Source: Spiribacter halobius
Lineage (GTDB): Bacteria; Pseudomonadota; Gammaproteobacteria; Nitrococcales; Nitrococcaceae
DNA: 64,000 nt
NCBI RefSeq assembly: GCF_020883455.1
Contig: NZ_CP086615.1
Coordinates: 1,240,001 to 1,304,000 of the forward strand
Reading direction: 5' to 3'
Below the pieces are notes generated by a model. The model searched no databases. It saw nothing but the letters and a program-made list of their open reading frames with translations, and was not told where the DNA came from. The position numbers and the translations under genes were made by a program. Each line of letters starts with the position of its first letter. The first letter of the stretch is position 1. Shown piece after piece: positions 321-22,670 of this stretch.

Positions 321-3293
321 GTGGAGCGAAAGGTGAGCATGGATTCGGCCTCCGAGGAAGGCACCGGCGGGACCCGCGGGCGCTCCAGCATCTCCGCGCC
401 GGAGATCGCGGCCGCGCTGCCCCGCTTCGAGGATCATGCGCGGCAGGAGCGCAAGTTCACGACCTGCTACATGTGCGCCTGCCGCTGCGGCATCGAGGTC
501 ACGCTGGAGAACGGTCAGCCGCGGTACATCCGGGGCAACCCCAACCACCCGATCAACCGCGGCGTGCTCTGTGCCAAGGGCAACGCCGGGATCATGAAGC
601 AGCTCTCCCCGGCGAAGCTGCGCAACCCGCTGATGCGCAAGCCCGGCAGCGAGCGCGGCAGCGGTGAGTTCGTGGAGGTCTCCTGGGAGGAGGCGCTGGA
701 TACGCTCACCGAGCGCCTGCGCGAGATCCGCGCCACCGATCCCAACCGGCTGGCCTACTTCACCGGTCGTGACCAGATGCAGGCGCTGACCGGGCTCTGG
801 GCGCAGCAGTTCGGCACGCTGAACTGGGCCGCCCACGGCGGCTTCTGCTCGGTGAACATGGCCGCCGCCGGCCTCTACACCATCGGGCAGTCGTTCTGGG
901 AGTTCGCCGACCCGGACTGGGACCGCACCCGCTATTTCCTGCTCTGGGGGGTGGCCGAGGATCACGCCTCCAACCCGATCAAGCTGGGCATTGAGAAGCT
1001 CAAGCGTCGCGGCGCCAAGTTCGTCGCCATCAACCCGGTGCGGACCGGCTACCAGGCGGTAGCGGACGAATGGGTGCCGATCCGCCCCGGTACCGACGCC
1101 ATGCTGGCGCTTGCCATGTGCCACGTGCTGCTGGCCCGGGACCTGGTGGACTGGGAGTTCGTCGGCCGCTACACCAACGCCCCTTACCTGGTGATTCAGA
1201 ATCCCGGACAGTCCGACGATGGCCTCATCGCCCGCGATGGCGATGGCAACCCGCTGGCGTGGGATCCGGAGCAGGGCGGGCCCGTGAACGGCGCCGAGGC
1301 GGGTGCGACCCGGGCGCTCTTCGGCGAGTACACCCTGCCGGACGGCCGTCGCACCAAGACGGCGATGACGCTGATCGCCGAGCGCTATCTGGATGAGCGC
1401 TACAGCCCCGAGCAGGCCGCCGAGGTCTGCGGCGTGCCGGCGGAGACCATCGAGCGCCTGGCCCTGGAGATGGGCCATGTGGCCTTCAACGAGACCGTGG
1501 AGATCCCCTGCGCCTGGACGGACTGGGCGGGCCGCGAGCATGACAGCTTCGTCGGCCGGCCGGTGTCCATGCACGCCATGCGCGGCATCTCCGCGCACTC
1601 CAACGGCTTCCAGAGCTGCCGGGCGATCCATCTGCTGCAGGTGCTGCTGGGGACCATCGACGTCCCGGGCGGCCATCGCGCCAAGCCGCCGTTCCCGCGG
1701 CCCACGCCGCCCGCGATCAAGCCGGCGAAGGAGACCGCACCCAACACGCCGCTCGCCGGTCCGCCGCTCGGCTTTCCAACCGCGCCGGAGGACCTGGTGG
1801 TGGATGCCGAGGGCCGGCCGCTGCGAATCGACAAGGCCTACTCATGGGAGGCCCCGCTCGCCAACCACGGCCTGATGCACATGGTCATCAACAATGCCGT
1901 CAACGGCGACCCGTACCCCATCGACACGCTCATCCTGTTCATGGCCAACATGGCCTGGAACTCGAGCATGAACGCGGGCAGCACCCGTGCGCTGCTGCAG
2001 GCGAAGGACGAGAACGGCGACTACAAGCTGCCGTTCCTGGTGGTGGTGGATGCCTTCCACTCGGAGACGGTGAATTTCGCCGACCTGGTGCTGCCGGACA
2101 CCACCTACCTCGAGCGCTACGACTGCATCTCGCTGCTGGATCGCCCGATCTCCGAGCCGGACGGGCCCTGTGACGCGATCCGGGCACCGGTGATCGAGCC
2201 CGACCGCAACGTTCGGCCCTGGCAGGAGGTGATGGTGGAGCTCGCCGGCCGGCTGGGATTCCCGGCCTTCGTCGACGACGCCGGAGCGCCCAAGTACGAC
2301 GGCTACAAGGACTTCATCGCCCGCTGGGAGAAGGCGCCCGGAGTGGGTTTCCTCGCCGGCTGGCGCGGCCGGGACGGCGACACCCATCTGCGCGGCGAGC
2401 CCAACCCGGACCAGTGGGAGCGCTACGTCGAGAACGAGGGCTTCTTCCAGTACCACCTGCCCGAGCACATGCGCTTCTACCGCTTCGCCAACCGGGACTA
2501 TCTGGAGTGGGCGCGGGACGTGGGCTTCAATCCGAGTGCGGAGCCCATCGTCATGGAGCTCTACTCCGAGCCGCTGCAACGCTTCCGGCTGGCGGGGCAG
2601 GGCCTCTACGACGGCCCGCGCCCGAGTGACCCGGCGGACCGCGAGCGCCTGGTGCGCTACTTCGACCCGCTCCCCGGGCACTACCAGCCGCTGGAGCAGG
2701 CCCAGGTGGACGACGACAGCTTCCCGCTGCACGCCGTCACCCAGCGGCCCATGCACATGTACCACTCCTGGGACTCCCAGAACGCCTGGCTGCGCCAGAT
2801 CACCGCCCAGAACTTCCTCTTCATGAACCGCCAGCGGGCGGTGCAGATGGGCATCGGCGACGGCGACTGGGTCTGGGTGGCCTCCCGCAACGGCCGCGTG
2901 CGCGCCCAGGTCCAGCTCATGGAGGGCTGTCAGGCGGACACGGTCTGGACCTGGAACGCCATCGGCAAGCAGGCGGGCAACTGGGGCCTGTCTCCGGACG
3001 CCCCGGAGGCGCGCCGGGGCTTTCTGCTCAACCATCTGATCTCCGAGCTGCTCCCGGAGCGCGAGCAGGCGCCGCGGCACAGCAACTCCGACCCGATTAC
3101 CGGCCAGGCCGCCTGGTACGACCTGCGGGTGCGGGTCACCCCGGCGGGGCCGGAGGAGGAGGACACCTGGCCGCAGTTCGAGACCGCGCCGCCACTGCCC
3201 GGGCAGCCGCCGGCGCCGGAGCAGCTGCGCTATCACACCCACGAGCCGGTGCGCATCCATCGCACCCTCCGCGACATCCTGATGAGGAAGTAG
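321..3293 (+). CDS. soeA: SoeA-like molybdopterin sulfite dehydrogenase, catalytic subunit
   Basis: 990 aa protein of the DMSO-reductase (Mo-bis-MGD) superfamily. An N-terminal [4Fe-4S] site is formed by C49, C52, C56 and C84. The segment around HGGFCSVN supplies a plausible cysteine Mo ligand, and the C-terminal third is the MGD-binding barrel. There is no twin-arginine signal, as expected for SoeA, whose active site faces the cytoplasm. The next two genes encode a four-cluster ferredoxin subunit and a DmsC/NrfD-like anchor, giving the soeABC order known from purple sulfur bacteria and sulfonate degraders. It should oxidise sulfite to sulfate and pass electrons to quinone. The GTG at 321 follows AGGAGG closely; GTG 336 is an alternative start. 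Other CISM enzymes (polysulfide/thiosulfate reductase) cannot be excluded by eye. Confidence 0.75.
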   Translation: MERKVSMDSASEEGTGGTRGRSSISAPEIAAALPRFEDHARQERKFTTCYMCACRCGIEVTLENGQPRYIRGNPNHPINRGVLCAKGNAGIMKQLSPAKLRNPLMRKPGSERGSGEFVEVSWEEALDTLTERLREIRATDPNRLAYFTGRDQMQALTGLWAQQFGTLNWAAHGGFCSVNMAAAGLYTIGQSFWEFADPDWDRTRYFLLWGVAEDHASNPIKLGIEKLKRRGAKFVAINPVRTGYQAVADEWVPIRPGTDAMLALAMCHVLLARDLVDWEFVGRYTNAPYLVIQNPGQSDDGLIARDGDGNPLAWDPEQGGPVNGAEAGATRALFGEYTLPDGRRTKTAMTLIAERYLDERYSPEQAAEVCGVPAETIERLALEMGHVAFNETVEIPCAWTDWAGREHDSFVGRPVSMHAMRGISAHSNGFQSCRAIHLLQVLLGTIDVPGGHRAKPPFPRPTPPAIKPAKETAPNTPLAGPPLGFPTAPEDLVVDAEGRPLRIDKAYSWEAPLANHGLMHMVINNAVNGDPYPIDTLILFMANMAWNSSMNAGSTRALLQAKDENGDYKLPFLVVVDAFHSETVNFADLVLPDTTYLERYDCISLLDRPISEPDGPCDAIRAPVIEPDRNVRPWQEVMVELAGRLGFPAFVDDAGAPKYDGYKDFIARWEKAPGVGFLAGWRGRDGDTHLRGEPNPDQWERYVENEGFFQYHLPEHMRFYRFANRDYLEWARDVGFNPSAEPIVMELYSEPLQRFRLAGQGLYDGPRPSDPADRERLVRYFDPLPGHYQPLEQAQVDDDSFPLHAVTQRPMHMYHSWDSQNAWLRQITAQNFLFMNRQRAVQMGIGDGDWVWVASRNGRVRAQVQLMEGCQADTVWTWNAIGKQAGNWGLSPDAPEARRGFLLNHLISELLPEREQAPRHSNSDPITGQAAWYDLRVRVTPAGPEEEDTWPQFETAPPLPGQPPAPEQLRYHTHEPVRIHRTLRDILMRK

Positions 3294-3294
3294 C

Positions 3295-3990
3295 ATGCGA
3301 CTGGGCCTGGTCATCGACATGGACACCTGTGTGGGCTGTCACGCCTGCGCGGTGGCCTGCAAGCAGTGGAACAGCTCCGGAACCCTGGGGCCGCTGACCG
3401 ATTACATGCCCTACGGCGAGGACCCAGCGGGTGTGGCCTTCAACCGCATCCGCAGTTACGAGGTGGGCGACTACCCCCACAACAAGACCGTCAACTTCCC
3501 GATGTCGTGCATGCACTGCGACACCGCGGAGTGCGTGACGGTCTGCCCGACGGGCGCCTCCTACAAGCGCGAGGAGGACGGCATCGTCCTGGTGGATCAG
3601 GACAAGTGCATGGGCTGCAACCTCTGCGCCTGGGCCTGCCCCTACGGCGCCCGGGAGCTGGACGAGGACTCCGGCACCATGAAGAAGTGCACCCTCTGCG
3701 TGGACCGCATCTACGACGAGGAGCTGCCGCCGGAGGAGCGCCAGCCCGCCTGCGTGCTCACCTGTCCGACCCATGCCCGGTTCTTCGGCGACTTCGACGA
3801 CTCGGACTCCAAGGTCAGCCGTCTCGTGCGCGAGCGAGGCGGCCAGCAGTCCCTGCCGGAGCTCGGCTACAACCCGGTCAATCACTACCTGCCGCCGCGC
3901 AACAAGGCCCGGGCCGAGCAGGCCGAGGCGCCGGCCATGAGCCTGCAGGAACGGCTCAGGCAGTGGGTGGACAAGGCCGTCACCCGCTGA
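3295..3990 (+). CDS. soeB: SoeB-like four-[4Fe-4S] electron transfer subunit
   Basis: 231 aa ferredoxin-like subunit with four cysteine clusters, including CVGCHACAVAC near the N-terminus, CMHCDTAEC, CMGCNLCAWAC and a CTLC/CVLTCP pair. This is the DmsB/PsrB fold that carries electrons between the molybdenum subunit and the membrane anchor. It starts one base after the catalytic subunit's stop, with AGGAAG as ribosome site, so the two are translated together. The charged, Met/Gln-containing C-terminal tail after the last cluster is typical of SoeB-length proteins. Family assignment is firm; sulfite as substrate comes from the gene set. Confidence 0.8.
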   Translation: MRLGLVIDMDTCVGCHACAVACKQWNSSGTLGPLTDYMPYGEDPAGVAFNRIRSYEVGDYPHNKTVNFPMSCMHCDTAECVTVCPTGASYKREEDGIVLVDQDKCMGCNLCAWACPYGARELDEDSGTMKKCTLCVDRIYDEELPPEERQPACVLTCPTHARFFGDFDDSDSKVSRLVRERGGQQSLPELGYNPVNHYLPPRNKARAEQAEAPAMSLQERLRQWVDKAVTR

Positions 3991-4051
3991 CCGACGAAAC
4001 CCCGTCGGCCGCGCCCTCGGGCTGCGGCCGACGCGCACTCCGGAGGAGCGA

Positions 4052-4996
4052 ATGCATCCCGCGTTATCGGTGATTTTTTTCACGGTGGTGTCCGGCGCCG
4101 GCTTCGGGCTGGTCATGCTCGCCGCCCTCGCTGCCCTGATGCCCGCGCTGCTGCCGGTCAGCGAAGCGGAGCGGCTGGTGGCAGGCGTTCTCGGCACGGC
4201 GCTCGCGACCGCCGGGCTCATGGCCTCGACCCTCCATCTGGCGAATCCGAAGAACGCCTGGCGCGCGTTTTTCCGCTTCCGGACCTCCTGGCTGTCCCGG
4301 GAGGCCGTGTTCTCGGTGCTGTTCTACCCCTTTGCCGTGCTCTGGCTCGGTGGCGTGTGGTGGCTCGGCGGCCCGACCGCGCTCACCACGGCGGCGGCGC
4401 TGGCGGCCCTGGTGCTCGCCATCGCCACGGTCTTCGCCACCGGCATGATCTACGCCTCGCTGCGGGCGATCCCGAACTGGCACAGCCCCCTGGTGCCCAT
4501 GAACTACCTGCTGCTCTCGCTGGCCTCCGGCGCGCTGCTCATGCTCGCGGTGCAGACGGTGATGCGCGGCGGTGCGGTCGGGCAGACGCTGGTGACGCTG
4601 ACGCTGGCGCTGATTGCGGCGGCAGCGCTGGGCAAGGCGGTCTACTTCTACTGGATCGGCGCGCCGGCGGGCTCCTCGATCAACACCGCCACGGGCATGA
4701 CCCGCGGCCAGGTGCGCCTGCTCCACACCGGGCAGAGCAGCGAGCAGACCTTCCTGGACAAGGAGTTCCGCTTCCAGGTGGCGGCGCGGCGCCTGCGCTG
4801 GCTGCGGCTCGCGGTTGCCGCCCTCGGCTTCGTGCTGCCCCTGGTGCTGGTGGCGAGCCTGCTGGGCGGCGGTAGCGGCTGGCTGGTGCTGCTGGCGGTG
4901 CCGGTCGCCCTGGCGGGGCTCGCCATCGAGCGCTGGCTGTTCTTCGCCGAGGCGCGGCACGTGGTGAACCTCTTCTACGGCGCGCAACGGGTGTGA
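4052..4996 (+). CDS. soeC: SoeC-like membrane anchor (DmsC family)
   Basis: 314 aa integral membrane protein with about eight hydrophobic segments, matching the DmsC-type anchor of CISM enzymes. The motif region HLANPKNAWRAFFRFRTSWLSRE lies on a loop after the second segment and is typical of DmsC/SoeC proteins. It would anchor the A and B subunits to the cytoplasmic face and reduce quinone. A GAGGAG site precedes the ATG. It follows soeB after 61 bp and is followed by a SulP transporter after 37 bp, so all four are probably one operon. Confidence 0.78.
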   Translation: MHPALSVIFFTVVSGAGFGLVMLAALAALMPALLPVSEAERLVAGVLGTALATAGLMASTLHLANPKNAWRAFFRFRTSWLSREAVFSVLFYPFAVLWLGGVWWLGGPTALTTAAALAALVLAIATVFATGMIYASLRAIPNWHSPLVPMNYLLLSLASGALLMLAVQTVMRGGAVGQTLVTLTLALIAAAALGKAVYFYWIGAPAGSSINTATGMTRGQVRLLHTGQSSEQTFLDKEFRFQVAARRLRWLRLAVAALGFVLPLVLVASLLGGGSGWLVLLAVPVALAGLAIERWLFFAEARHVVNLFYGAQRV

Positions 4997-5033
4997 GCGT
5001 GGCGCGGGCGACACGGCACGGGAGAGGGGGGCG

Positions 5034-6815
5034 ATGAGCGCCGTGCAGCCGACCCCTGCCGAGCGGCTGCTGCCGTTCCTGCGCTGGCTGCCCATGGTGG
5101 GCCCGCGCACCCTGCGCGCCGACCTCATCGCCGGGGCCACGGGGGCGATCATCGTCCTGCCCCAGGGCGTGGCCTACGCCCTGATCGCCGGCCTGCCGCC
5201 GGAATACGGCCTGTATACGGCCATCGTCACGCCCATCGTGGCCGGGCTGTTCGGCTCGTCGTTGCATCTGGTCTCCGGGCCGACGGCGGCCATCTCCATC
5301 GTCGTCTTCAGCGTCGTCAGCGGGGTGGTGTCGCCGGAGAGCCCGCAGTTCATCCCCTACGTGCTCACCGTCACCTTCCTGGCGGGGCTGATCCAGTTCG
5401 CCCTCGGCGTCACCCGCATGGGGACGCTGGTCAACTTCATCTCCCACACCGTGGTGGTCGGGTTCACCACCGGCGCGGCGATCCTCATCGGCACCAGCCA
5501 GCTGCGGCATTTCACCGGCATCGAGGCGCCCACCGGTGAGTCGTTCCTGCACACCTGGCAGGCGCTGCTCGCCGGGTTGGGCGGCGCCAACGGCTACTCC
5601 ATCGCCATCGGCACGGTGACGCTGCTGACCGCGCTGGGCCTGCGCGCCTGGAAGCCGCGCTGGCCCGGCATGCTCATCGCCATGGTGGTGGGCAGCCTCG
5701 CCTGCCTGGCCATCGGCGGCGGCGAGCGCGGAGTGCCGCTGGTGGGGGCGATGGCCGGCGGCCTGCCCGCGCCCAGCGTTCCGGAGCTCTCGCCGGATGT
5801 GGTCCGCGAGCTCGCCCCCGGGGCCCTCGCGGTGGCGATCATCGCGCTCATCGAGGCGGTGTCCATCGCCCGCGCCGTCGCCATCCGCTCGCACCAGCAG
5901 ATCGACGGCAACCAGGAGTTCATCGGCCAGGGGCTGTCGAACATGGTCGGTAGCTTCTTCTCCTGCTACGCCGGCTCGGGCTCGTTCACGCGTACCGGCG
6001 CCAATTACGACGCCGGCGCGCAGACGCCGCTGGCGGCGGTGTTCGCCGCTATCATGCTGGCGCTGGTGCTGCTGCTTGCGCCGGGCGTCACCGCCTACCT
6101 GCCGCTGCCGGCGATGGCCGGCATCGTGCTGCTGATCGCCTGGAACCTCATCGACTTCCACCACATTCGCAAGATCATGCGGGCGAGCCGCCGGGAGACG
6201 GTGGTGCTCGCGGTGACCTTCGCGGCCACGCTGCTGCTGGAGCTCGAGTTCGCCATCTACGTGGGCGTGCTGCTGTCGCTGGTGCTCTATCTGCAGCGCA
6301 CGGCCAAGCCGCGGCTGGTCGATCTCGCGCCCATGGCCGATCGTGCCGAGCGCCCGCTGCGCAACGCCGCCAAGCGCGACCTGCCCGAGTGTCCGCAGCT
6401 GCGCATCCTGCGGATCGACGGCTCGCTGTTCTTCGGCGCGGTGGACCACGTGCAGACGGCACTGAAGAACGACCCCGAGGGCGAGCGACCGCATGTGCTC
6501 ATCATCGGCAATGCCATCAACTTCATCGACGTGGCGGGTGCCGAGATGCTGGTGGAGGAGGCCGAGCGCCTGCGCCATGCCGGCGGCGGGCTCTATCTCT
6601 GCGGCGTGAAGTCCCCGGCGCTGGAAACCATGCGCCGCGGCGGCTACCTGGACGCCATTGGCGAGGAGAACCTGTTCACCACGCCCGAGGACGCCATTCA
6701 CGCGATTTTCCAGCGACTCGACGGCGAGGTCTGCCGCACCTGCCAGCGGCGGATCTTCCTCGAGTGCGCCAACGCCCCCGGCCCCGAGCCGGCCCCGGGC
6801 GGTACACAACCATAG
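5034..6815 (+). CDS. SulP family anion transporter with STAS domain
   Basis: 593 aa. The first roughly 400 residues form the multi-spanning SulP core, with the typical start [22 protein letters not shown]-terminal STAS domain (about residues 455-560) contains the [14 protein letters not shown] loop. SulP proteins move sulfate, bicarbonate or other anions. Its position between soeC and pta suggests it handles sulfate made from sulfite, or an anionic sulfonate. Direction of transport and substrate cannot be read from sequence. An unusual tail after STAS carries [12 protein letters not shown], a CxxC plus a further cysteine, which could bind metal or be redox-active. Confidence 0.8.
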
Positions 6816-6829
6816 CGGGGGAGAGGGAC

Positions 6830-7852
6830 ATGAAGATCTTCGAGCGACTGGAGGAGCGGGCGCGCGCCCGGCCCATGCGCATCGTCCTCTCCGAGGGCGA
6901 GGATGAGCGGGTCCTGCGCGGGGCGCGCATGGCGGTGGATGCCGGCGTGGCCCGGGTGACGGTGCTCGGGGATGCCGACGCCATCGCGCAGACCGCCGAG
7001 GAGGCCGGCGTCGACCCGCGCGGTATCGAGATCATCGATCCGGTCCGCAGCGAGCGGCGCGAGCGCTACGCGAGCGCGCTGCAGGAGCTGCGCCGGCACA
7101 AGGGGGTGAGCCTCGAGCAGGCGCGGGAGGCGGCGGGCCAGCCGCTGTACTTCGCCCCGCTCATGGTGCGCCTCGGCGATGCGGACGGCTGCGTCGGCGG
7201 CGCGGTGCAGTCCACGGCCGACACGGTGCGGGCGGCGCTGCAGATCATCGGTACGGCGGAGGGCGTGAAGCTCGTGTCGAGCTTCTTCCTGATGATGTTC
7301 TGCGAGCCCTACCACGAGCGCAAGGGCGGACTGATCTTCGCCGACTGCGGCCTGGTGGTGGATCCGGACGCCACCGAGCTCGCCCACATCGCCACCGCCT
7401 CCGCCGAGAGCGCCCGGGCGCTGCTCGACGAGGAGCCGCGGGTGGCCATGCTCTCGTTCTCCACGCACCACAGCGCCGATCATCCCCTCGCGGACAAGGT
7501 GGCCCGGGCCGCGGAGCACGTGCGCGAGCTGAACCCGGCGCTCAAGGTGGACGGCGAGCTGCAGCTCGACGCCTGCCTGGTGCCGGAGGTGGCCGAGCGC
7601 AAGGCGCCCGGTTCGGTGGTGGCCGGCAATGCCAACGTGCTGGTCTTCCCGAACCTGGATGCCGGCAACATCGGCTACAAGCTCACGGAGCGCCTCGGCC
7701 ATGCCAAGGCCATCGGTCCGGTGCTGCAGGGACTGCGGCAGCCGGCCAACGATCTCTCCCGCGGCTGCGCCGCCGAGGATGTCTACCGCATGATCGTGGT
7801 GACGGTTATCCAGGCCCAGGCACAGGTCCAGGCCCAGGCCCGGCAGGCCTGA
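6830..7852 (+). CDS. pta: phosphate acetyltransferase
   Basis: 340 aa, the short single-domain Pta type. It opens with [20 protein letters not shown] and has the conserved regions [25 protein letters not shown] and a C-terminal hydrophobic helix. It converts acetyl phosphate and CoA to acetyl-CoA and phosphate. The ATG at 6830 follows GGGAGAGGG. No ackA is adjacent; instead it is embedded with sulfite dehydrogenase genes. That is the arrangement expected where sulfoacetaldehyde acetyltransferase (Xsc) supplies acetyl phosphate plus sulfite. The tail is a run of QAQAQVQAQ, a low-complexity extension. Confidence 0.88.
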
Positions 7853-7973: not shown

Positions 7974-8816
7974 ATGCCGCAGCGTGAGGCCGGGGAGGTC
8001 GCTGCCGTGGGGGATCGGCAGGCGACGGCCACGGCAGAGTCGACACCGCGCCGGGACCTGTCGCCACGGGCGTTGCGCGTCCTGGGGGCGGGGCTCGGCG
8101 GGGGCATCGTCCTCGCGTTGTTGTCCGTCCTGGCCAGTGACGGGGCCGCGCCGGGCACGCCGCTTCGCCAGTCGCTGGCCATTGCCGGCAGCCTGCTGCT
8201 GCTGGTGCCGCTCGCGTTCTCGCTCGGCAAGCGCTCCGGGCGCTCGCGGCGCACCCCGGCCTGGTTCTCCGCCCATGTGCTGGCGAGCGCTCTGGGGGCC
8301 GTGCTCGTCACCGCCCATGCCGCCGCCGGCGACCTGCTCTCGCCGCCGGGCCTGGTCTGGCTCGCGCTGATGGGGCTGCTTGCCCAGGGGCTCGCCGCGC
8401 GGCTGCTGCTGTCGCGGCCGCTCTCGACCCTCTTCTCCTCCCGCCTCGGCAGCTTCCGCGAGGCCGAACCGGATCTTCGCGAGCGGCTGCGCGTGGTGAT
8501 CCGGCGCAAGCAGACGCTGCTCGCAGCGCTGGACCCCGCCGCGGACGAGGCCCTGTTCTCGCCGAATCTCCGCCATGCCCTGCGCCATCCGTGGCTGACC
8601 TGGCGCTACGCCCGCCTCGCGGCCACGGAGGCGCGTCTGGTGGGCCGGGGTGAGGCCGGGCTGGTGCTCGCTTACTGGCGGCGCACGCACATAGCGCTGG
8701 CGCTGCTGTTCCTGCTCGGGCTGATCGGGCACGTGGTGCTCGTGCTGTTCTTCGCCGGTTACGTGGCCGGGGACGGCCCGGTGGACTGGTGGCACGTCGC
8801 CGCGTGGGGAGGGTGA
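7974..8816 (+). CDS. membrane anchor protein of a molybdoenzyme system
   Basis: 280 aa with about five hydrophobic segments: two near residues 33-75, two near 87-130 and a last pair near 235-260. Histidines lie inside or at the edges of several segments (SAHVLAS, TAHAAAG, LIGHVVLVLFF, DWWHVAAW). This suggests a heme-b-binding or quinone-reactive cytochrome-like anchor rather than a NrfD/DmsC protein. It ends 4 bp before the fused FeS/molybdopterin gene, so the two almost certainly form one complex. I do not recognise a named family. GGGAGGAGG precedes the ATG. Confidence 0.6.
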   Translation: MPQREAGEVAAVGDRQATATAESTPRRDLSPRALRVLGAGLGGGIVLALLSVLASDGAAPGTPLRQSLAIAGSLLLLVPLAFSLGKRSGRSRRTPAWFSAHVLASALGAVLVTAHAAAGDLLSPPGLVWLALMGLLAQGLAARLLLSRPLSTLFSSRLGSFREAEPDLRERLRVVIRRKQTLLAALDPAADEALFSPNLRHALRHPWLTWRYARLAATEARLVGRGEAGLVLAYWRRTHIALALLFLLGLIGHVVLVLFFAGYVAGDGPVDWWHVAAWGG

Positions 8817-8820
8817 GCGC

Positions 8821-11709
8821 ATGCCGCGCCTGAACCTGATGATCGACCTGGAGCGCTGCATCGGCTGCAAGAGCTGCGAGGCGGCCTGCAAGCAGGTCAA
8901 CGGCCTCGGGCCGCACGAGTACCGCACCCGCGTGCAATGGCTCGGCGACCCGGACGTGCCGGACCTCGACTTCCTGACTGTCACCTGCCAGCAGTGCGAG
9001 CGCCCGGCCTGCCTGCGGGCCTGCCCGGTCTCGCCGAAGGCGCTGGAGAAGGACCCGGACACAGGCGTCGTCAGCGTGGACGAGTCCCGCTGCACCGGCT
9101 GCGGCGAATGCGTCGCCGCCTGCCCCTATGGCGCCATGGGCTACGACCCGGTGGAACACCATGCGGTGAAGTGCGATCTCTGCGCGCCGCGGCGGGCCGA
9201 GGGCGGCGGGCCGGCCTGCGTCAGCGTCTGCCCCACCGAGGCGCTCAGCTTCGGGCGCCACGACGACCTGCTCGCCCGCGCCCGGGACGCCGGCCGCCAC
9301 GTGCGCGACCACGACCACTTCCTGCAGGGGCCGGGGACGATCATCCTCGATCGCATGGGGCGCCCGGAGCATGGCCGGGACACCCTGGCCGGGCGCGTGG
9401 TGCCGAAGGCCCAGGACGACCCCGGCCGCCGCGGGGTGCTGGACGGTGCGGCCGTGGCGACGCCCTACCGCGTGCCCGCCGCGGAGCGCCGGGCGGATCG
9501 GATCGAGCGCGGCGGCTGCAACATCTGCTTCAACGGCTGCCCGGTGAAGTATCACCTGCGGGGCGACGAGGTCATCGGCATCCTCGGCAACGACGACGAT
9601 CCGATCTTCGCCGGCCGGGTCTGCCCGAAGTCCCAGATGTCGCTGCAGATGTATGCGGGCAACCAGCGCCTGACCCGGCCGCTGAAGCGGGTGGGTGCCC
9701 GGGGCGAGGGCCGCTTCGAGCCCGTGAGCTGGGAGCACGCGCTGGACGACATCGCCGCGCGGCTGCGCGGCGTCCGCGAGCGCCATGGCCCGGAGGCGCT
9801 GGCCATCTTCCTCGGCACGCGCACCGGCGTCCTTACGATCATGGGCTATGCGCGGCTCTTCCAGCAGCTCTGGGGCACGCCGAACATGCTCACCACGCAG
9901 ATCCTCTGCGACGAGGGCAAGGTGCAGGCGCTGGAGCGGGTCCAGGGCTCGACCAACCTCGCCAACATCTACACGCGCGAGGACATCGGCAGCGCCGATC
10001 TGCACGTGTACATCGGCGACAACCAGGCGGAGACGCGGCCGGTCAATTTCGGCCTGGTCAACGGCTGGCGGCTCGAGCGCGGCGCCCGCATGGTGGTGGT
10101 GGACCCGCGGCTCACCGCCACCGCCAGCAAGGCGGACCGCTGGCTCGCCATCCGCCCCGGAACCGACATGGCGCTGGGGCTCGCCCTCATCGGGCATCTG
10201 TTCACGAGCGGCCTGCATGACCAGGCCTTCTGCCGCGACTGGGTCCTCGGCTGGGAGCACTGGCGGGACTTCATCGCCGCCGAGGGCTACACCCCGGAGT
10301 GGGCGGCGCCGATCACCGGCCTGGCAGCGGCGGATATCCGCTGGCTCGCCGAAACCATTGCCGCGGCGGACGGCTGCATGCTCTACCTCAGCCGGGGCGT
10401 CAATCAGCACGCCAACTCGACCCAGTGCAACCGGGTGTTCATGTTCCTCGCCGCGATCACCGGCAACTGGGGCCGCCCCGGCGGCGGCTTTTCCAACGTC
10501 GCCTCGGAGCCGGACTGGGGCCCGCTGCCGGTACCGGAGACGCGGCGCAAGGTGCCGGAGCGGGGACCGGTGGGTCCGAGCGTCACCGACTGGGCGAACG
10601 CGGCGCTGCAGGCGGAGCCTTATCCGCTGCGGGCGCTCATCACCGGCAACAATCCCGTGGGCCAGTGGCCGGACAGCGAACGCACGCAGCAGGCCCTCGC
10701 GGCCATGGACCTGGTGGTGCACATCGAGCTCTTCCGCAACGCCACCTCCGAGTGGGCGGACTACGTGCTGCCGGCGGCGAGCGGCATCGAGAAGGGCGGC
10801 GTCAGCCGGCTCGCCGAAGACCGGCGCATCGTCTGGAACGACCGCATGATCCCGCCGCCGGGCGAGGCGCGCTCCGATCACTGGATCTGGGTCGAGCTCG
10901 GCCGGCGGCTTGGCTTCGGTGACGTGCTCGAGGAGCGCTACAAGGACCCTGCGGTGTTCTGGGACGAGGTCTTCCGCCAGGCGACGCCGGACCTGCGCGG
11001 GGTCACCGTCGAGCGGCTGCGTGAGCAGCCGGGCCGCTGGCTGCGCACGCCGCTGCGGGAGGAGGGTGCACCGGAGGCGGGCACGCTCTACCTGGAAGGC
11101 ACGGCCTTCCCGGGGGATCCCGAGGGCCGGCGTTTTCCCACCCCGAGCGGCCGCCTCGAGTTCTGGAGCGAAGCCCAGGAACAGGCCTTCGCGGCACGCG
11201 GGCTATCGGCGCTGCCGTTCTTCTACGGTGACGCCGAGCAGGGCAGCCCGATGCCCTGGTTCGCCGCAGAGGGCGCCGGTGGGGTCGGCGGCCTGCGGCG
11301 GAGTGCGCGCCATCCGGGTGCCGCCGACGCCGCTGCAGGTTTCGACACCGAGCTCGTGACCGGCCGCCCCCCCGCGCCGCAGTTCCACTCCTGGACCCAC
11401 TACTTCTGGCAGGCCCAGGAGATGTGGCCCGATCTCTACTGCCAGCTGCATCCGGACAAGGCGAGCGCCATCGGCGTTGGCGACGGCGACCGGGTCCGGC
11501 TCGAGACGCCCGATGGCGGCAGCCTCGAGGCCCGCGCCTGGGTGACGCGGGGTATCCGCCCGGAGAGCGTGTTCGTGCCCATCGGCTGGGGGGAAGGCCA
11601 GCCCTGGCACCCCTGGGGATCGGTGAACCGCCTGACCCGCGGACATGGCGACCCGTTCTCCGGCCAGCCCAACCTCAAGCTGCACCGCTGCCGGGTGCGG
11701 CGGGCGTAG
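8821..11709 (+). CDS. fused ferredoxin-molybdopterin oxidoreductase (one-chain B+A subunit)
   Basis: 962 aa fusion. Residues 1 to about 160 form a PsrB/DmsB-like ferredoxin with four cysteine groups (CIGCKSCEAAC, CQQCERPAC, CTGCGECVAAC, CDLC/CVSVCP). After a linker, a complete Mo-bis-MGD catalytic chain begins at GGCNICFNGCPVKY (its own [4Fe-4S], closed by GRVCPKS), with a likely Cys Mo ligand in QILCDEGK. The usual separate B and A subunits are thus merged with B first. No Tat signal is present, so the enzyme should be cytoplasmic. The membrane protein 4 bp upstream is its presumed anchor. Substrate is unknown; a sulfur oxyanion is likely from context. Confidence 0.8.
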   Translation: MPRLNLMIDLERCIGCKSCEAACKQVNGLGPHEYRTRVQWLGDPDVPDLDFLTVTCQQCERPACLRACPVSPKALEKDPDTGVVSVDESRCTGCGECVAACPYGAMGYDPVEHHAVKCDLCAPRRAEGGGPACVSVCPTEALSFGRHDDLLARARDAGRHVRDHDHFLQGPGTIILDRMGRPEHGRDTLAGRVVPKAQDDPGRRGVLDGAAVATPYRVPAAERRADRIERGGCNICFNGCPVKYHLRGDEVIGILGNDDDPIFAGRVCPKSQMSLQMYAGNQRLTRPLKRVGARGEGRFEPVSWEHALDDIAARLRGVRERHGPEALAIFLGTRTGVLTIMGYARLFQQLWGTPNMLTTQILCDEGKVQALERVQGSTNLANIYTREDIGSADLHVYIGDNQAETRPVNFGLVNGWRLERGARMVVVDPRLTATASKADRWLAIRPGTDMALGLALIGHLFTSGLHDQAFCRDWVLGWEHWRDFIAAEGYTPEWAAPITGLAAADIRWLAETIAAADGCMLYLSRGVNQHANSTQCNRVFMFLAAITGNWGRPGGGFSNVASEPDWGPLPVPETRRKVPERGPVGPSVTDWANAALQAEPYPLRALITGNNPVGQWPDSERTQQALAAMDLVVHIELFRNATSEWADYVLPAASGIEKGGVSRLAEDRRIVWNDRMIPPPGEARSDHWIWVELGRRLGFGDVLEERYKDPAVFWDEVFRQATPDLRGVTVERLREQPGRWLRTPLREEGAPEAGTLYLEGTAFPGDPEGRRFPTPSGRLEFWSEAQEQAFAARGLSALPFFYGDAEQGSPMPWFAAEGAGGVGGLRRSARHPGAADAAAGFDTELVTGRPPAPQFHSWTHYFWQAQEMWPDLYCQLHPDKASAIGVGDGDRVRLETPDGGSLEARAWVTRGIRPESVFVPIGWGEGQPWHPWGSVNRLTRGHGDPFSGQPNLKLHRCRVRRA

Positions 11710-11719
11710 GCGGCGCGGC

Positions 11720-12442
11720 TCAGAACAGCAGCAGCACCAACGACAGTCCGATCAGCGCCAGCAGGGCGACGCGGCGGAATCGTGCCTCGTCGATGCGATG
11801 GAAGATGAGCGAGCCGATGCCCACGCCGACGAGGAAGAAGGGCGCCAGGGTGAGCGCCAGCATTCCCATGGATAGCGAGAATACCCCGGTGTACGCAAGA
11901 TAGCCGAGGGTGACCGACGAGATGAAAATGATGAACAGCGTCAGGTGGGCGCGGGTGGTGACCACCGGGTCCGGCCCCGAGAGCAGGTAGAGGATGACCG
12001 GTGGGCCGCCGACACTGGTCGCACCGGTGAGCACGCCACTCACGGCGCCGACGGCGAGCCCGGCGAGCGCGTGTGGGCGGCCGTGGTAGCGGAAACCCTG
12101 GAGCATGAGCAGGGAGAACCCGAGCACCATGGCCGCGATCAGCTTGCGGGTGAGATCGGGGTCCAGGCTTGCCAGCGCGGTGGCGCCCAGCGGTACCGTG
12201 GCAGCGGCGGCGACCAGGATGGGGGCGAGTCGGCGCGGCCGGGCGAAGCGCAGGGCCGCCGGCAGCATGCTGGCGGCGGCGACACTCTCCAGCAGCAGGC
12301 TCGTGACCACCGCCTGCGCCGGCGTCACGATCAGCGACAGCGGCGCAGTGAGCACGATGGCGCCGCCGAAACCGGTCACCCCTCGGGTGAGGCCGGCCAG
12401 CAGGGCCAGCGCCCCGGCGAGCGCGAAGATCATCGGGCTCAC
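11720..12442 (-). CDS. TSUP (TauE/SafE) family exporter
   Basis: 240 aa with eight predicted membrane segments and the two-fold TSUP pattern: GLTRGVTGFGGAIVL in the first half and the related GVLTGATSVGGPPVILY in the second. TauE/SafE proteins export sulfite, sulfoacetate and similar anions. Next to a sulfite dehydrogenase and a putative sulfonate pathway it most likely removes excess sulfite. It is convergent with the molybdoenzyme gene, the stops being 10 bp apart, and lies downstream of the iclR regulator on the same strand. Confidence 0.8.
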   Translation of the reverse strand: MSPMIFALAGALALLAGLTRGVTGFGGAIVLTAPLSLIVTPAQAVVTSLLLESVAAASMLPAALRFARPRRLAPILVAAAATVPLGATALASLDPDLTRKLIAAMVLGFSLLMLQGFRYHGRPHALAGLAVGAVSGVLTGATSVGGPPVILYLLSGPDPVVTTRAHLTLFIIFISSVTLGYLAYTGVFSLSMGMLALTLAPFFLVGVGIGSLIFHRIDEARFRRVALLALIGLSLVLLLF

Positions 12443-15596: not shown

Positions 15597-16361
15597 TCAG
15601 CAGGACGAGAACCCGCCGTCGACGAACAGGGTCTGCCCGGTGATGTAGTCCGAGGCCGGGCTCGCCAGGAACCGGGTGACTCCGGCCAGATCCTCCAGCC
15701 GGCCGTTGCGCCTTGCCGGCGTATGCGCGGCGAGCGCCGCCGCCCGCTGCTCGTCCTCGAACACCGGCGCGGTGAGCTCGGTGGGGAAGAACCCGGGGGC
15801 GATGGCGTTGCAGCCGATGCCGTGCCGGGACCAGGCCTCGGCCATCGCGCGGGTCATCTGCATCACGCCGCCCTTGGCGGTGCCGTAGGGCAGGCTGTCC
15901 GGGAAGGCACGGACCGACTGCAGCGAGGCGAGGTTGATGATCCGCCCCCAGCCGGCGGCCTGCATCGCCGGGACCAGCGCCCGGGCGAGGAAGAATGGTG
16001 CGGTCAGGTGCAGATCGAGGGTGAGCCGCCAGTCGGCGAGGGTCACCTCGTCCACCGGCTGGCGCAGGTTCACGCCCGCCGCGTTGACGAGGATGGCCGG
16101 TGCGCCGAAGGCTTGCGCCGCCGCGGCGGCCACAGCGTCGAGGCCTTCGGCGTCCGCCAGGTCCGCCGCAAGGGTGGCTGCCGCACCGGTTTTCGCGGCG
16201 TTGATCCGCTGGGCGGTAGCGCGGAGCTGGTCTTCCCGGCGGGCGACCAGCACCACGCTCGCGCCCGCCGCGGCCAGCGCCTCGGCCATGGTGCGGCCGA
16301 TGCCGGAGCTCGCCCCGGTCACCACCGCGACCCGTCCTTCGAGCTCGCCCGCCGCGGTCAT
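15597..16361 (-). CDS. SDR family dehydrogenase (HpsO/HpsP-like candidate)
   Basis: 254 aa classical short-chain dehydrogenase. It has the coenzyme motif TGASSGIG, NAAGVN, an active-site YGTAK and the C-terminal ITGQTLFVDGG. Its ATG overlaps the stop of the HpsN-like gene by 4 bp (ATGA), implying translational coupling. With the adjacent Zn-alcohol dehydrogenase it would provide the two accessory dehydrogenases of a dihydroxypropanesulfonate pathway. Cofactor preference is likely NAD, since no basic residue follows the second strand's end in an obvious way. Substrate is inferred from context only. Confidence 0.72.
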   Translation of the reverse strand: MTAAGELEGRVAVVTGASSGIGRTMAEALAAAGASVVLVARREDQLRATAQRINAAKTGAAATLAADLADAEGLDAVAAAAAQAFGAPAILVNAAGVNLRQPVDEVTLADWRLTLDLHLTAPFFLARALVPAMQAAGWGRIINLASLQSVRAFPDSLPYGTAKGGVMQMTRAMAEAWSRHGIGCNAIAPGFFPTELTAPVFEDEQRAAALAAHTPARRNGRLEDLAGVTRFLASPASDYITGQTLFVDGGFSSC

Positions 16362-17662
16362 GCCGAGGCCTCCGTCTCCAGCGGCTCGTCCGGGAAGTAG
16401 CGGCGCAGGCGGGCATCACCGGTGCGGGCGTGGGCCTCCATGCCCTCGCCCCGGGACAGGCGGGCGGCGACCCGGGCGACGTCCCGGGTCCCCTCCCGGC
16501 TCTGGCGCTGGTAGCTCACGACCTTGAGGAATTTGAGCGCGCTCAGGCCGCCCGTGTAGCGGGCAGCGCCGCGGGTGGGCAGGATGTGGTTGGTGCCCGA
16601 GCACTTGTCGCCGAAGGCGACCGTGGTCTCCTCGCCGAGGAACAGCGAGCCGTAGTTGCGCAGTCGCTGCAGCCACCAGTCCTGATCCGCGGCATGCACC
16701 TCGAGGTGCTCCGGGGCATAGCGGTCGCTGACCGCTACCGCTTCCTCGCGGTCCCGGCAGAGCACGACCTCGCCGTAGTCGCGCCAGGAGGCCTCGGCGG
16801 CGTCGCGCTGCAGCTCGGGCAGATCGGCGATGAGGCCGGGCATGTGCTCCAGCACCTTCCGCCCCAGCGCCTCGTCGGTGGTGATCAGCCAGGCCGGAGA
16901 GTCCAGGCCGTGCTCGCACTGGCCGACCAGGTCGATCGCGACCAGCTCCGGGTCGGCGGTGTCGTCGGCGATGATGGCGATCTCCGTGGGCCCGGCGAAG
17001 AGGTCGATGCCTACCTCGCCGAACAGCAGCCGCTTGGCCTCGGCGACGAAGCGGTTGCCGGGGCCGACGAGGATGTCCGCCGGGGCGCCGGTGAACAGGC
17101 CATCCGCCATGGCGGCGACGCCCTGGACGCCGCCGAGGGCGAGGATGCGATCGGCGCCGGCGCGATCCATGGTGTACAGGATGGCGGGGTGGATGCCGTC
17201 CGCCCCCTTGGGCGGCGAGCAGGCGATGACGTTCTCCACGCCGGCGACGCGCGCGGTACCCACGCTCATGATGGCCGAGGCGATATGCGCGTAGCGCCCG
17301 CCCGGCACATAGCAGCCGGCTGTGGTCATGGGAATGATGCGCTGGCCGGCGAACAGCCCCGGGCTCAGCTCGGTCTCGAATTCCTGCAGGGAGTCGCGCT
17401 GCCGGCGGGCGAAGTCGGTGACCCGCTTGAGCGCGAACTCGATGTCGTCTTTCAGCGTCTCCGGGAGGCGGGCGGCGGCGCGGGTGATGGTCTCCCGGTC
17501 CACCACGGGCTCGCCCTCGAAGCCGTCGAGCTCCCGGGCGTAGGCGCGTGCGGCGGCCTCGCCCTCGCTGCGGATGCGCTGCAGCATTTCGCTGACGCGT
17601 TCGCTCACCTGCGGCGCCTCGTAGGCGGCGGTGCGGGATGCCTGCTTGATGTACTCAGCCAT
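16358..17662 (-). CDS. hpsN: HpsN-like sulfopropanediol 3-dehydrogenase (histidinol dehydrogenase fold)
   Basis: 434 aa member of the histidinol dehydrogenase family. The zinc-binding QCEHGLDS and the C-terminal EAHA histidine are kept, with LFAGPTEIAII before them and FGDKCSGTNHILPT near residue 355. No histidine-biosynthesis gene is nearby. Instead it heads a catabolic operon with two other dehydrogenases, next to a TRAP transporter, which is the hallmark of HpsN. HpsN oxidises 2,3-dihydroxypropane-1-sulfonate to sulfolactate in two NAD-dependent steps. A LacI-type operator lies 14 bp upstream of the ATG. A different HDH-family polyol dehydrogenase remains possible. Confidence 0.7.
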   Translation of the reverse strand: MAEYIKQASRTAAYEAPQVSERVSEMLQRIRSEGEAAARAYARELDGFEGEPVVDRETITRAAARLPETLKDDIEFALKRVTDFARRQRDSLQEFETELSPGLFAGQRIIPMTTAGCYVPGGRYAHIASAIMSVGTARVAGVENVIACSPPKGADGIHPAILYTMDRAGADRILALGGVQGVAAMADGLFTGAPADILVGPGNRFVAEAKRLLFGEVGIDLFAGPTEIAIIADDTADPELVAIDLVGQCEHGLDSPAWLITTDEALGRKVLEHMPGLIADLPELQRDAAEASWRDYGEVVLCRDREEAVAVSDRYAPEHLEVHAADQDWWLQRLRNYGSLFLGEETTVAFGDKCSGTNHILPTRGAARYTGGLSALKFLKVVSYQRQSREGTRDVARVAARLSRGEGMEAHARTGDARLRRYFPDEPLETEASA

Positions 17663-17675
17663 GACCGATTTCCTC

Positions 17676-17689
17676 TGTAAGCGTTTACA
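17676..17689 (-). promoter_or_regulatory. LacI-type operator before hpsN
   Basis: TGTAAGCGTTTACA is a near-perfect 14-bp LacI/GalR-family palindrome, located between dctM and the hpsN-like gene. It matches the sites at 21092-21105 and 21213-21225 and implies that the dehydrogenase operon has its own LacI-regulated promoter rather than relying on read-through from the TRAP genes. Confidence 0.65.
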
Positions 17690-17728
17690 TCGTCAGTTGC
17701 GGAGCCTGGTGTCGGTGCCGGGCGCCGG

Positions 17729-19039
17729 CTAGGACACGGACCACATGGAGAGCGCCGGCACGAAGGCCAGCAGAATGACTACCGCCAGCATCACGAGGAC
17801 GAAGGGCACGGCGCGGGCGGCGATGCGGAAAATGGACTCGCCCGATATGCCGGCGAGCACGAACAGATTGAGTCCCAGGGGCGGGGTGATGAAGCCGACC
17901 CCCAGGGCCGTGATCATCACCACCGCGAAGTGGATCTCGTGCATGCCGATGGACTCGGCCAGGGGCAGCAGCAGCGGCGAGAGGATGACGATGTTGGGGG
18001 TCGCCTCCATCACGCAGCCGGCGGCGACGAGGATGCCGATGATGAGCAGCGCCACCAGATACGGGTTCTCGGTGGTCTCGACGACGGCGGAGACGAAGTA
18101 CTCGGGAATATCCAGGCTGCTGAGCGTCTGTGCGAGCGGCAGCGACAGGGCGATGATGGGGACGATCACGCCGTTGATGCGGGCCGAGCTCTCCAGCGTC
18201 TTCGGCACGTCGGCGAGGCTGAGCGTGCCCTGCATGAAGCCCACCGAGGCGGTGGTCATGACCGCGACGGCCGCCGCCTCCGTGGGCGTGAAGATGCCGC
18301 TGTAGATGCCGCCGAGGATCACCACCGGCACCATCAGGGCATAGCGCGCGGCCCACACGGTGCGCAGCCAGTGGCCGAGCGCGAAGCGCTTGTCCGCGCG
18401 CTCGTAGCCGTGAATGCGGTTGAGCACGGCGTTGGTGATCATGATGGAGATCAGGATCAGCACGCCGGGCACCAGGGCGGCGAGGAACAGGGTAGAGACC
18501 GAGATCCCCAGCACAAGCCCGATGATGATGTAGGCGATGGACGGCGGGATCAGGATGCCGGTGCAGGCACCCGCGGCCACCAGCGCCGCAGCGGCCGGGC
18601 GCGGGTAGCCCACCTCCACCAGGCGATGCACCGTCATGCGGCCGACGGCGGCGGCACCGGCAGCGTCCGAGCCGGAGACGCAGGCGAAGAAGCCGCAGCC
18701 GAGGACGGTCGCCGTGCCCATGCCGGTGCGGATCGGGCCGACGGTGGCCTCTGCAAGATCGAGCAGCCGGTCGGAGAGGCCCGTGCGCACCAGCAGATCC
18801 CCGGTGAGCACGAACATCGGGATGGCGAGCAGCGCGAACGCACTGATGCCGTCGAACAGCGCCTCGCCGAAGAGCGACAGCGGCAGGCCGTCGCCGAAGT
18901 AGAGCATGCCGACGGTGCCGAGGCCGATGCTCACCCAGATCGGCACCCCCAGCACGAGTAGGCCCACGAGTGCGGCGAGGGGCAGGTAGAAGGCCCAGCC
19001 GAGGCCAAGGCCCACCGATACGCTGTTGGCGACGTCCAT
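17729..19039 (-). CDS. dctM: TRAP transporter large permease (DctM)
   Basis: 436 aa with about 12 hydrophobic segments and typical DctM regions (LPLSLFGEALFDGISAFALLAIPMFVLTG, CGFFACVSGSDAAGAAAVG, GACTGILIPPSIAYIIIG). It is the ion-coupled permease of a tripartite periplasmic transporter for organic acids or sulfonates. It lies 15 bp after dctQ in the same operon. In the sulfonate model it corresponds to one of HpsKLM. Substrate specificity resides in the binding protein, not here. Confidence 0.9.
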   Translation of the reverse strand: MDVANSVSVGLGLGWAFYLPLAALVGLLVLGVPIWVSIGLGTVGMLYFGDGLPLSLFGEALFDGISAFALLAIPMFVLTGDLLVRTGLSDRLLDLAEATVGPIRTGMGTATVLGCGFFACVSGSDAAGAAAVGRMTVHRLVEVGYPRPAAAALVAAGACTGILIPPSIAYIIIGLVLGISVSTLFLAALVPGVLILISIMITNAVLNRIHGYERADKRFALGHWLRTVWAARYALMVPVVILGGIYSGIFTPTEAAAVAVMTTASVGFMQGTLSLADVPKTLESSARINGVIVPIIALSLPLAQTLSSLDIPEYFVSAVVETTENPYLVALLIIGILVAAGCVMEATPNIVILSPLLLPLAESIGMHEIHFAVVMITALGVGFITPPLGLNLFVLAGISGESIFRIAARAVPFVLVMLAVVILLAFVPALSMWSVS

Positions 19040-19054
19040 CGCGCGCTTCCCCCG

Positions 19055-19570
19055 TTACTTGACCATCTGCCCGGACTGCTGCACCGGCCGGCCGGCGCGG
19101 AAGTCGCGCCAGTCCTGCACCAGCGCCTGCAGCACGCGGAAAATCATGAGGCTGAACCCGAGCGGAACAGCGGCGAGAAACCAGGCCTCGCTCACGCGCA
19201 GGCCGGCGGTGACCGAGCCGTAGCGCAGGGACGTCTCCAGCGGGCCCCAGGAGTAGATCAGGGCGATCACCGCGAGCAGCAGCGTCATGACGTCGCCGAA
19301 GACGTAGAGCGCCCGCTGCAGCCCGGCCGGCGCCATCTGCAGCAGGATGTCGATGCGCAGGTGCGCGCGCTCCTTCACCGCGGCGGCGGCGCCGATCCAT
19401 GCCAGATAGATGAAGGCGAACCGCGCCGCCTCCTCGCCCCAGACGGACGAGTAGCTGAGCAGGAAGCGGCGCAGCACCTCCGAGGTCACCGTCAGCACGA
19501 TGAACAGGTAGAAGACCAGTAGCAGATAGCGCTCGGCGTTGCGGTCGATCAGGCGCAGCAGCTTGATCAT
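19055..19570 (-). CDS. dctQ: TRAP transporter small permease (DctQ)
   Basis: 171 aa with four membrane segments and the usual DctQ signatures: SSVWGEEAARFAFIYLAWIGAAAAVKERAHLRIDIL in the middle and a fourth helix ending LMIFRVLQAL. It pairs with DctM to form the membrane part of the TRAP system. It sits between dctP (54 bp away) and dctM (15 bp). Length and layout are normal for the family. Confidence 0.88.
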   Translation of the reverse strand: MIKLLRLIDRNAERYLLLVFYLFIVLTVTSEVLRRFLLSYSSVWGEEAARFAFIYLAWIGAAAAVKERAHLRIDILLQMAPAGLQRALYVFGDVMTLLLAVIALIYSWGPLETSLRYGSVTAGLRVSEAWFLAAVPLGFSLMIFRVLQALVQDWRDFRAGRPVQQSGQMVK

Positions 19571-19624
19571 GTCACGCTCCGGTAAAGCGCGATCCGGGCG
19601 CAGGGCGCCCGGATCGCGGTGCCC

Positions 19625-22609: not shown

Positions 22610-22670
22610 ATAACAGCGATAACTGACTGATGCTCGCGGCATCCGCCGGATCGTGAACAAGGAGATGGAG

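Follow-up and report, generated by a model that had tools for sequence, protein, structure and literature searches.

What kind of enzyme is encoded at positions 8821-11709 of a 64,000-nucleotide stretch of the Spiribacter halobius genome, and what does it act on? The stretch (contig NZ_CP086615.1, positions 1,240,001 to 1,304,000; hereafter the window) had been annotated from its letters alone. This original prediction described a chain that begins with a four-cluster ferredoxin and continues into a molybdenum catalytic subunit, with an unusual membrane anchor encoded next to it. Our analysis of sequences, predicted structures and gene neighbourhoods indicates that the fusion and its anchor are an uncharacterised family of the complex iron–sulfur molybdoenzyme (CISM) kind. 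The evidence for this architecture is good and, within the reach of our searches, it is undescribed; taken by itself, we consider it very probable. What the enzyme oxidizes is a more tentative matter, for which we propose sulfite released from sulfonates.

Ferredoxin and catalytic subunit in one chain

The fusion is encoded by a single open reading frame (ORF), whose ATG is the first start codon past the upstream stop. Its Pfam domains lie in the order Fer4_11 (residues 49-146), Molybdop_Fe4S4 (233-276), Molybdopterin (283-695) and Molydop_binding (845-953). Hence the ferredoxin (B) precedes the catalytic subunit (A) in one polypeptide, as had been predicted. All cysteines expected to hold the clusters and the molybdenum are conserved. 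Sixteen ferredoxin cysteines, the four cysteines of the catalytic [4Fe-4S] site (233, 236, 240 and 268) and Cys363 are kept in every one of the 61 full-length sequences (60 distinct). The features of a CISM or MopB enzyme are thus present: domains for molybdenum bis(molybdopterin guanine dinucleotide) (Mo-bisMGD), a cluster site ahead of the molybdenum domain, a four-cluster ferredoxin and a membrane partner. The AlphaFold model of the chain has a mean predicted local distance difference test score (pLDDT) of 82.3 and a predicted template modelling score (pTM) of 0.88, with the cluster region poorly modelled. All 50 Foldseek matches listed for this model are MopB enzymes.

The first cluster cysteine of the window protein is residue 13. 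The N-terminus is therefore too short for a twin-arginine translocation (Tat) signal, which agrees with the earlier claim that this protein is cytoplasmic. A Tat-like motif occurs in none of the 61 sequences, partly by construction, since the starts of the relatives had been trimmed to at most 25 residues before the first cysteine. When the ORFs are left untrimmed, the first cysteine lies at most 35 residues from the furthest start in 38 of 61, and a Tat-like string stands upstream in 5 of 61.

A predicted diheme anchor

The anchor looks like a diheme b-type cytochrome. It carries four invariant histidines in two pairs on two membrane helices (Table 1), the arrangement required of diheme b-type cytochromes of the four-helix kind. 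Cytochrome b, cytochrome b561 and diheme proteins of the NADPH-oxidase type bind heme through histidine pairs of this sort. The suggestion of a possible b-type anchor is thereby strengthened.

Known families match the anchor faintly. The window anchor stays below every Pfam and NCBIfam cut-off (DUF4405 reaches 16.5 bits vs a cut-off of 26.7), and a profile comparison with the DmsC-type subunit in the same window gives no match, in line with the claim that it is not of the DmsC/NrfD type. Among the 59 anchors scanned at E <= 0.1, DUF4405 weakly matches 36 (best 3.3e-6), a cytochrome b561 model two and a ferric reductase model one. The anchor has no solved relative by sequence and its structural model has no Foldseek match at E <= 0.001. 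With VIA-align 2, diheme b cytochromes appear at or near the top: cytochrome b6 (Z 9.5, root mean square deviation 8.0, 141 residues aligned), bacterial NADPH oxidase (Z 9.2, 4.7, 120), cytochrome b561 (Z 9.1, 4.1, 141) and STEAP4 (Z 8.0, 3.1, 122). These Z-scores of 8-9.5 are under the tool's caution level for helical bundles, and unrelated helical bundles are interspersed among the rows.

The loop between helices 4 and 5 (residues 146-226) is rich in positive charges, with a mean of 13.1 lysines and arginines per 83 residues; the stretches of 9, 8 and 20 residues assigned to the outside have 0.7, 0.8 and 0.5. This places the loop on the cytoplasmic side, where the ferredoxin could dock. No homologue of the anchor turned up in a single pattern scan of viral contigs.

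The two genes form a conserved unit

Anchor and fusion are a conserved two-gene unit. In the window, the anchor gene stops 4 bp before the fusion gene, as predicted. A single scan of public genome contigs yielded 67 fusion loci, many of them in metagenome bins, with 47-66% identity in the best segment. The anchor adjoins the fusion at 64 of 67 places, the window included, and the three misses start at contig edges. (Not counted are L002 and L004, duplicates from the Spiribacter genome, and L068, which holds only the C-terminal end of the fusion.) The original prediction would have been weakened by an anchor that is not conserved beside the fusion; we observe the opposite. A few loci, L041, L062 and L071 among them, have called ORFs 250-470 bp apart, and in L061 the anchor lies downstream of the catalytic gene. 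Past the pair, the neighbourhood shows no conservation across the whole family (the ORF tables include spurious ORFs).

The pair is spread widely yet thinly. Carriers include Halomonas, Vreelandella, Modicisalibacter, Spiribacter, Tritonibacter, Roseovarius, Rhodospirillales, Betaproteobacteria, Nitrospinota and symbionts such as Olavius gamma-3. In genomes related to that of the window the fusion is rare: it occurs in 2 of 59 genomes in a search of relatives, the window's own included (E <= 1e-60), and in 3 of 369 genomes of the window's class (E <= 1e-150). Both searches used strict E limits and scored few candidates per genome, so that distant members may be missed.

One copy of fusion and anchor, 42% identical to the window's, is found on a mobilizable Pseudohalocynthiibacter plasmid (L074, 1-26904). 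A putative sulfate exporter (annotated; PF03601) lies 5 kb off, and Rieske proteins, BetB and a betaine-type ATP-binding cassette (ABC) transporter are near. This cluster perhaps breaks down an N-methylated sulfonate.

A clade of its own

To place the catalytic domain, we used a tree of 41 rows, 17 of them family sequences drawn from the 67 places. The fusion family is one clade (support 100/100). It is sister to unfused, unnamed proteins of Streptomyces and Nostoc (99/99) and lies apart from SoeA (100/100), PhsA, TtrA-like, ArrA, formate dehydrogenase (Fdh), Nap/Nas and DmsA/TorA/BisC. Hence the catalytic domain does not fall inside a named family among the groups sampled, which would have spoken against a new enzyme. 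The references comprise one PhsA row for Psr/Phs, two ArrA rows (one over cut-off) and one TtrA-like row under cut-off; NarG, the Agrobacterium row, acetylene hydratase, ActB, AioA and PsrA were left out of this tree. With the 70% column filter used on the alignment, a cluster domain upstream is still part of the Pantoea and Halorussus rows, and the row SoeA_G104x is L105, from G103. A quicker tree and the careful one disagree over L061 as the single basal member of the family. In both, the family lies outside the PhsA, TtrA-like and ArrA groups. One group of fusion and SoeA is rejected by the approximately unbiased test (p-AU 0.0008), a test chosen after the quick tree had been seen and with several reference branches long.

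If no named family contains the fusion, similarity scores still point somewhere. The best NCBIfam score is Fdh-alpha, which all 45 family members scanned match as well; the best profile match in the PDB is FdhF of the hydrogen-dependent CO2 reductase, and the best Foldseek match is a formate dehydrogenase. The fusion may then be a formate dehydrogenase that has its ferredoxin built in, or another such non-sulfur dehydrogenase acting on a C1 or organic compound. However, the Fdh-alpha score of 296 bits is far below the cut-off of 666, and no curated NCBIfam cut-off is reached by the fused chain. The residue after the ligand cysteine is Asp, Ala or Ser in 17 of 17 family rows, whereas it is His in four of five Fdh rows (Gln in Pantoea), and the family lies outside the Fdh clade. 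On these three grounds we reject the identity with formate dehydrogenase, and we regard the wider dehydrogenase reading as quite unlikely.

The nearest unfused relatives are encoded on plasmids of Streptomyces sp. NBC_01708 (L075, 5824-8349) and Nostoc sp. C052 (L076, 5884-8400) and are 65.5% identical to each other. The Streptomyces protein sits in an arsenic-resistance island.

This location of one of the two relatives, together with the many reductases among CISM enzymes, would fit an enzyme that runs in the opposite direction and passes electrons from quinol to a sulfur oxyanion, an N-oxide or a metalloid. Against such a direction stand the sulfonate breakdown context of some carriers and their way of life, as many carriers are probably aerobic heterotrophs. 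We judge a reductase decidedly unlikely.

An unfused relative

One member of the family is not fused. In L061 (47% identical, 2274-6056), separate genes encode the ferredoxin, the catalytic chain and the anchor, arranged as B-A-C, and Pfam confirms the split domains. The anchor is of the same predicted heme type as the partner of the fusion. The ferredoxin and catalytic genes overlap by 8 bases, ATGAATAA, which looks like a normal gene border; less probably, the split is a frame error in the metagenome assembly. Among 41 genomes searched around L061 there is no second unfused case, and the sole other strong match (L110, 47% identical, partial) is fused. A TauE/SafE exporter is encoded just upstream of L061, and another near L042.

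Sulfonate genes and the candidate substrate

The surroundings of the pair in S. halobius agree with the sulfur context that had been claimed for it. Just upstream of the window lie genes of a tripartite ATP-independent periplasmic (TRAP) transporter, Xsc (over its curated cut-off), a flavin adenine dinucleotide (FAD) protein resembling TauY, a MocR regulator and another group of TRAP genes. Onward in the window follow SoeABC-like genes, SulP, Pta directly before the anchor, the fusion and a convergent TauE. The SoeABC-like set had been placed in the same operon direction as the fusion: the shared plus strand holds, a single operon is not supported, as SulP and Pta intervene. The names TauX, TauY and TauR for these genes are our assumption from context; the TauX and TauY candidates match no NCBIfam cut-off, and the TauR candidate is PdxR/MocR by NCBIfam.

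In the account of TauR regulons given by PMC5320631, tauE, pta and xsc are members, and some Rhodobacterales regulons hold the subunits bisC, dmsC and hybA, suggested as acceptors of electrons from TauXY. That description fits the SoeABC-like genes, and the taurine section of the paper has no mention of the fusion.

The same association recurs elsewhere. Xsc lies about 6-16 kb from the pair on the same contig in the window genome, Spiribacter salilacus, Halomonas elongata, H. almeriensis and Vreelandella arcis. Xsc, Pta, a TauY-like gene, MocR, fusion and anchor share 16 kb in H. elongata. In Spiribacter a stretch of 17 kb takes in SoeA, Xsc, the anchor, the fusion and one TRAP gene, and genes for MocR and TauXY-like proteins lie beyond it; in V. 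arcis the pair, a TRAP gene, an exporter of the YeiH type and Xsc fall within 19 kb, and fusion and Xsc are ~16 kb apart on one contig of H. almeriensis. Across genomes, Xsc over cut-off is found in 24 of 49 genomes with the fusion vs 18 of 366 class genomes without it (Fisher p about 1e-14, unmatched for phylogeny and inflated by relatedness). By rows the carrier count is 25 of 50, because G012 and G059 are one genome. The two sets overlap: class genomes G364 and G460 appear to be the carriers G096 and G084, with identical Xsc coordinates. A link between the fusion and sulfonates is likely.

We propose the following mechanism. Fusion and anchor would associate as a complex of two proteins at the cytoplasmic membrane, on its inner face. 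Catalysis would take place at Mo-bisMGD, held by a cysteine in the catalytic half of the chain. Electrons would pass from the catalytic [4Fe-4S] site through the four ferredoxin clusters of the same chain to two b-type hemes of the partner, and on to quinone. Heme binding, quinone as the partner and the oxidative direction are all things we infer from the sequences. The substrate would be sulfite, freed from taurine-type sulfonates by Xsc and converted to sulfate. The complex would then be a heme-anchored sulfite:quinone oxidoreductase that works beside SoeABC or, in some hosts, without it. In its favour, six carriers with Xsc have neither SoeA nor a Mo-co_dimer oxidase. For this whole model, in which gene context makes sulfite the likeliest single substrate, we put the chances somewhat short of even.

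Several observations weigh against it. About half of the carriers (25/49), including all nine Nitrospinota searched, have no Xsc over cut-off, although four of them (G068, G073, G093 and G097) contain truncated fragments, perhaps of an Xsc gene interrupted where the contig stops. Carriers that lack Xsc need another source of sulfite or another substrate. Close linkage to taurine genes is seen in five genomes only, with flanks examined mostly to 8 kb or less, and TauR boxes occur at chance level in L005, L006 and L008. The catalytic clade is not sister to SoeA in the 41-row tree. Nor do the counts show the fusion making up for missing sulfite oxidases. Our census of carriers, which covers SoeA and Mo-co_dimer oxidases, finds SoeA in 22 of 49 and Mo-co_dimer oxidases in 17 of 49. 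Among genomes with Xsc, SoeA is present in 16 of 24 with the fusion and in 13 of 18 without it; both oxidases are missing in 6 of 24 and 4 of 18, respectively. Since SoeA is about as common with the fusion as without it, the substitution argument fails, and a plain replacement of SoeA is unsupported. Finally, the Olavius gamma-3 symbiont, itself a carrier (L022), is described with an AprAB/Sat route in PMC10356861.

These counts, together with the separate clade, make room for another sulfur substrate handled by the same architecture, such as thiosulfate, polysulfide, tetrathionate or an organic sulfinate like hypotaurine. The enzyme would work beside SoeABC and not duplicate it, as the similar SoeA frequencies among Xsc-bearing genomes would suggest. 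The cysteine ligand is shared with PhsA, TtrA-like proteins, SoeA and ArrA, and a taurine neighbourhood in some carriers with no dependence on Xsc in others is what such a substrate would allow. But the sequence features favour none of these compounds, and hypotaurine is our own suggestion, for which titles and abstract openings among the papers listed hold nothing relevant. We consider a different sulfur substrate somewhat unlikely.

In a broader reading, biology would have one more way to oxidize sulfite or organic sulfinates besides SorAB/SorT, SoeABC and AprAB/Sat: a single-chain molybdoenzyme coupled to a new family of transmembrane diheme cytochromes, in Proteobacteria, Nitrospinota and animal symbionts, with unfused L061 showing how the fusion arose. 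We offer this combination tentatively, as possible and on balance doubtful.

If sulfite is the substrate, a quinone-linked oxidase in marine sulfonate and sulfur cycling has been missed by gene lists built on SoeABC, SorAB and Apr/Sat. Its hosts would be Halomonas, a gutless-worm symbiont, other marine bacteria and Nitrospinota. DmsC-type anchors are heme-free; a heme anchor would carry electrons across the membrane, and energy coupling would become testable. The sulfite idea is directly testable in Halomonas elongata, a named isolate in which we found neither SoeA nor a Mo-co_dimer oxidase.

Other genes of the window

The features are collected in Table 1. The SoeA-like chain is 61% identical to a chain of Azospirillum encoded near xsc; the reference here is the Azospirillum protein, not the Allochromatium enzyme.

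Table 1. Positions of the fusion, its anchor and neighbouring genes in the window
Feature	Position	Strand	Evidence
Fused chain, N-terminal four-[4Fe-4S] ferredoxin and Mo-bisMGD catalytic subunit, 962 aa	8821..11709	+	ORF, Pfam, alignments, AlphaFold
Ferredoxin part, about residues 6-176, 16 invariant Cys	8836..9348	+	Pfam, alignment; pLDDT 46-88 by blocks
Catalytic part from C233: CxxCxxxC...C site, Mo domain, dinucleotide-binding domain	9517..11706	+	Pfam, alignments
Cys363 codon, in the Mo-ligand column, followed by Asp	9907..9909	+	alignment; invariant in 61/61
Membrane anchor, 280 aa, five hydrophobic helices, conserved ~80-residue loop between helices 4 and 5	7974..8816	+	ORF, alignment, model pLDDT 86.1
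His101 ... His115, third helix	8274..8318	+	60/60 anchors (59 distinct), spacing always 14
His239 ... His253, fifth helix	8688..8732	+	60/60 anchors (59 distinct), spacing always 14
SoeABC-like complex: 990 aa MopB chain, four-cluster ferredoxin, DmsC anchor	321..4996	+	ORFs, Pfam
SulP sulfate permease	5034..6815	+	TIGR00815 over cut-off
Phosphate acetyltransferase (Pta), putative start	6815..7852	+	TIGR00651 over cut-off
TauE/SafE exporter, convergent	11720..12442	-	over Pfam cut-off

Near the taurine genes, a region at 15597-20779 (-) and 21209-22267 (+) encodes a short-chain dehydrogenase/reductase (SDR), a HisD-like protein, which we take from its context to be of the HpsN type, TRAP transporter genes and a LacI-type regulator. 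It looks like a cluster for dihydroxypropanesulfonate catabolism. Further on lies the B12-dependent ribonucleotide reductase NrdJ (22653-24827, +), and a separate downstream ORF (24949-25650, +) resembles the C-terminus of a longer enzyme of this type.

Comparison with known systems

Among the papers listed, none describes the fusion or the anchor by its title or the opening of its abstract; this is a weak negative, since few subscription papers are covered.

ActB of alternative complex III likewise joins a catalytic-type MopB domain and a ferredoxin in one chain. Its order is A then B. The fusion, in contrast, puts the ferredoxin first and keeps the molybdenum ligand and all cluster ligands. 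The molybdenum site of ActB is lost, according to PMC10100899. No such loss is seen in the fusion, where ligand cysteine and cofactor domains are kept, which speaks against an ActB-type protein.

PhsABC, FdnGHI and NarGHI are CISM enzymes with diheme cytochrome b anchors. The idea of a b-type anchor is common to them and the fusion, and the H-x13-H helix of PhsC and FdnI aligns weakly with that of our anchor. Their subunits are separate, however, and the anchor profile matches are insignificant (E 0.077, 0.23 and 0.43).

The Streptomyces and Nostoc proteins are closest by clade; identity is 33.5% over 77% of the query for the first and 32.1% over 79% for the second. In contrast to the fusion, they have no fused ferredoxin and no annotated anchor nearby (adjacent short hypothetical proteins were outside this check).

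SoeABC is similar in composition and setting: a MopB enzyme with a cysteine ligand, a four-cluster ferredoxin, a membrane anchor and a sulfonate or sulfur context, with a set of its kind in the same window. Yet SoeA belongs to another clade and shares 29% identity with the fusion over 286 aa plus 23% over 538. SoeABC has three separate subunits and a DmsC-type anchor, whereas the fusion is one chain with an anchor of predicted heme type.

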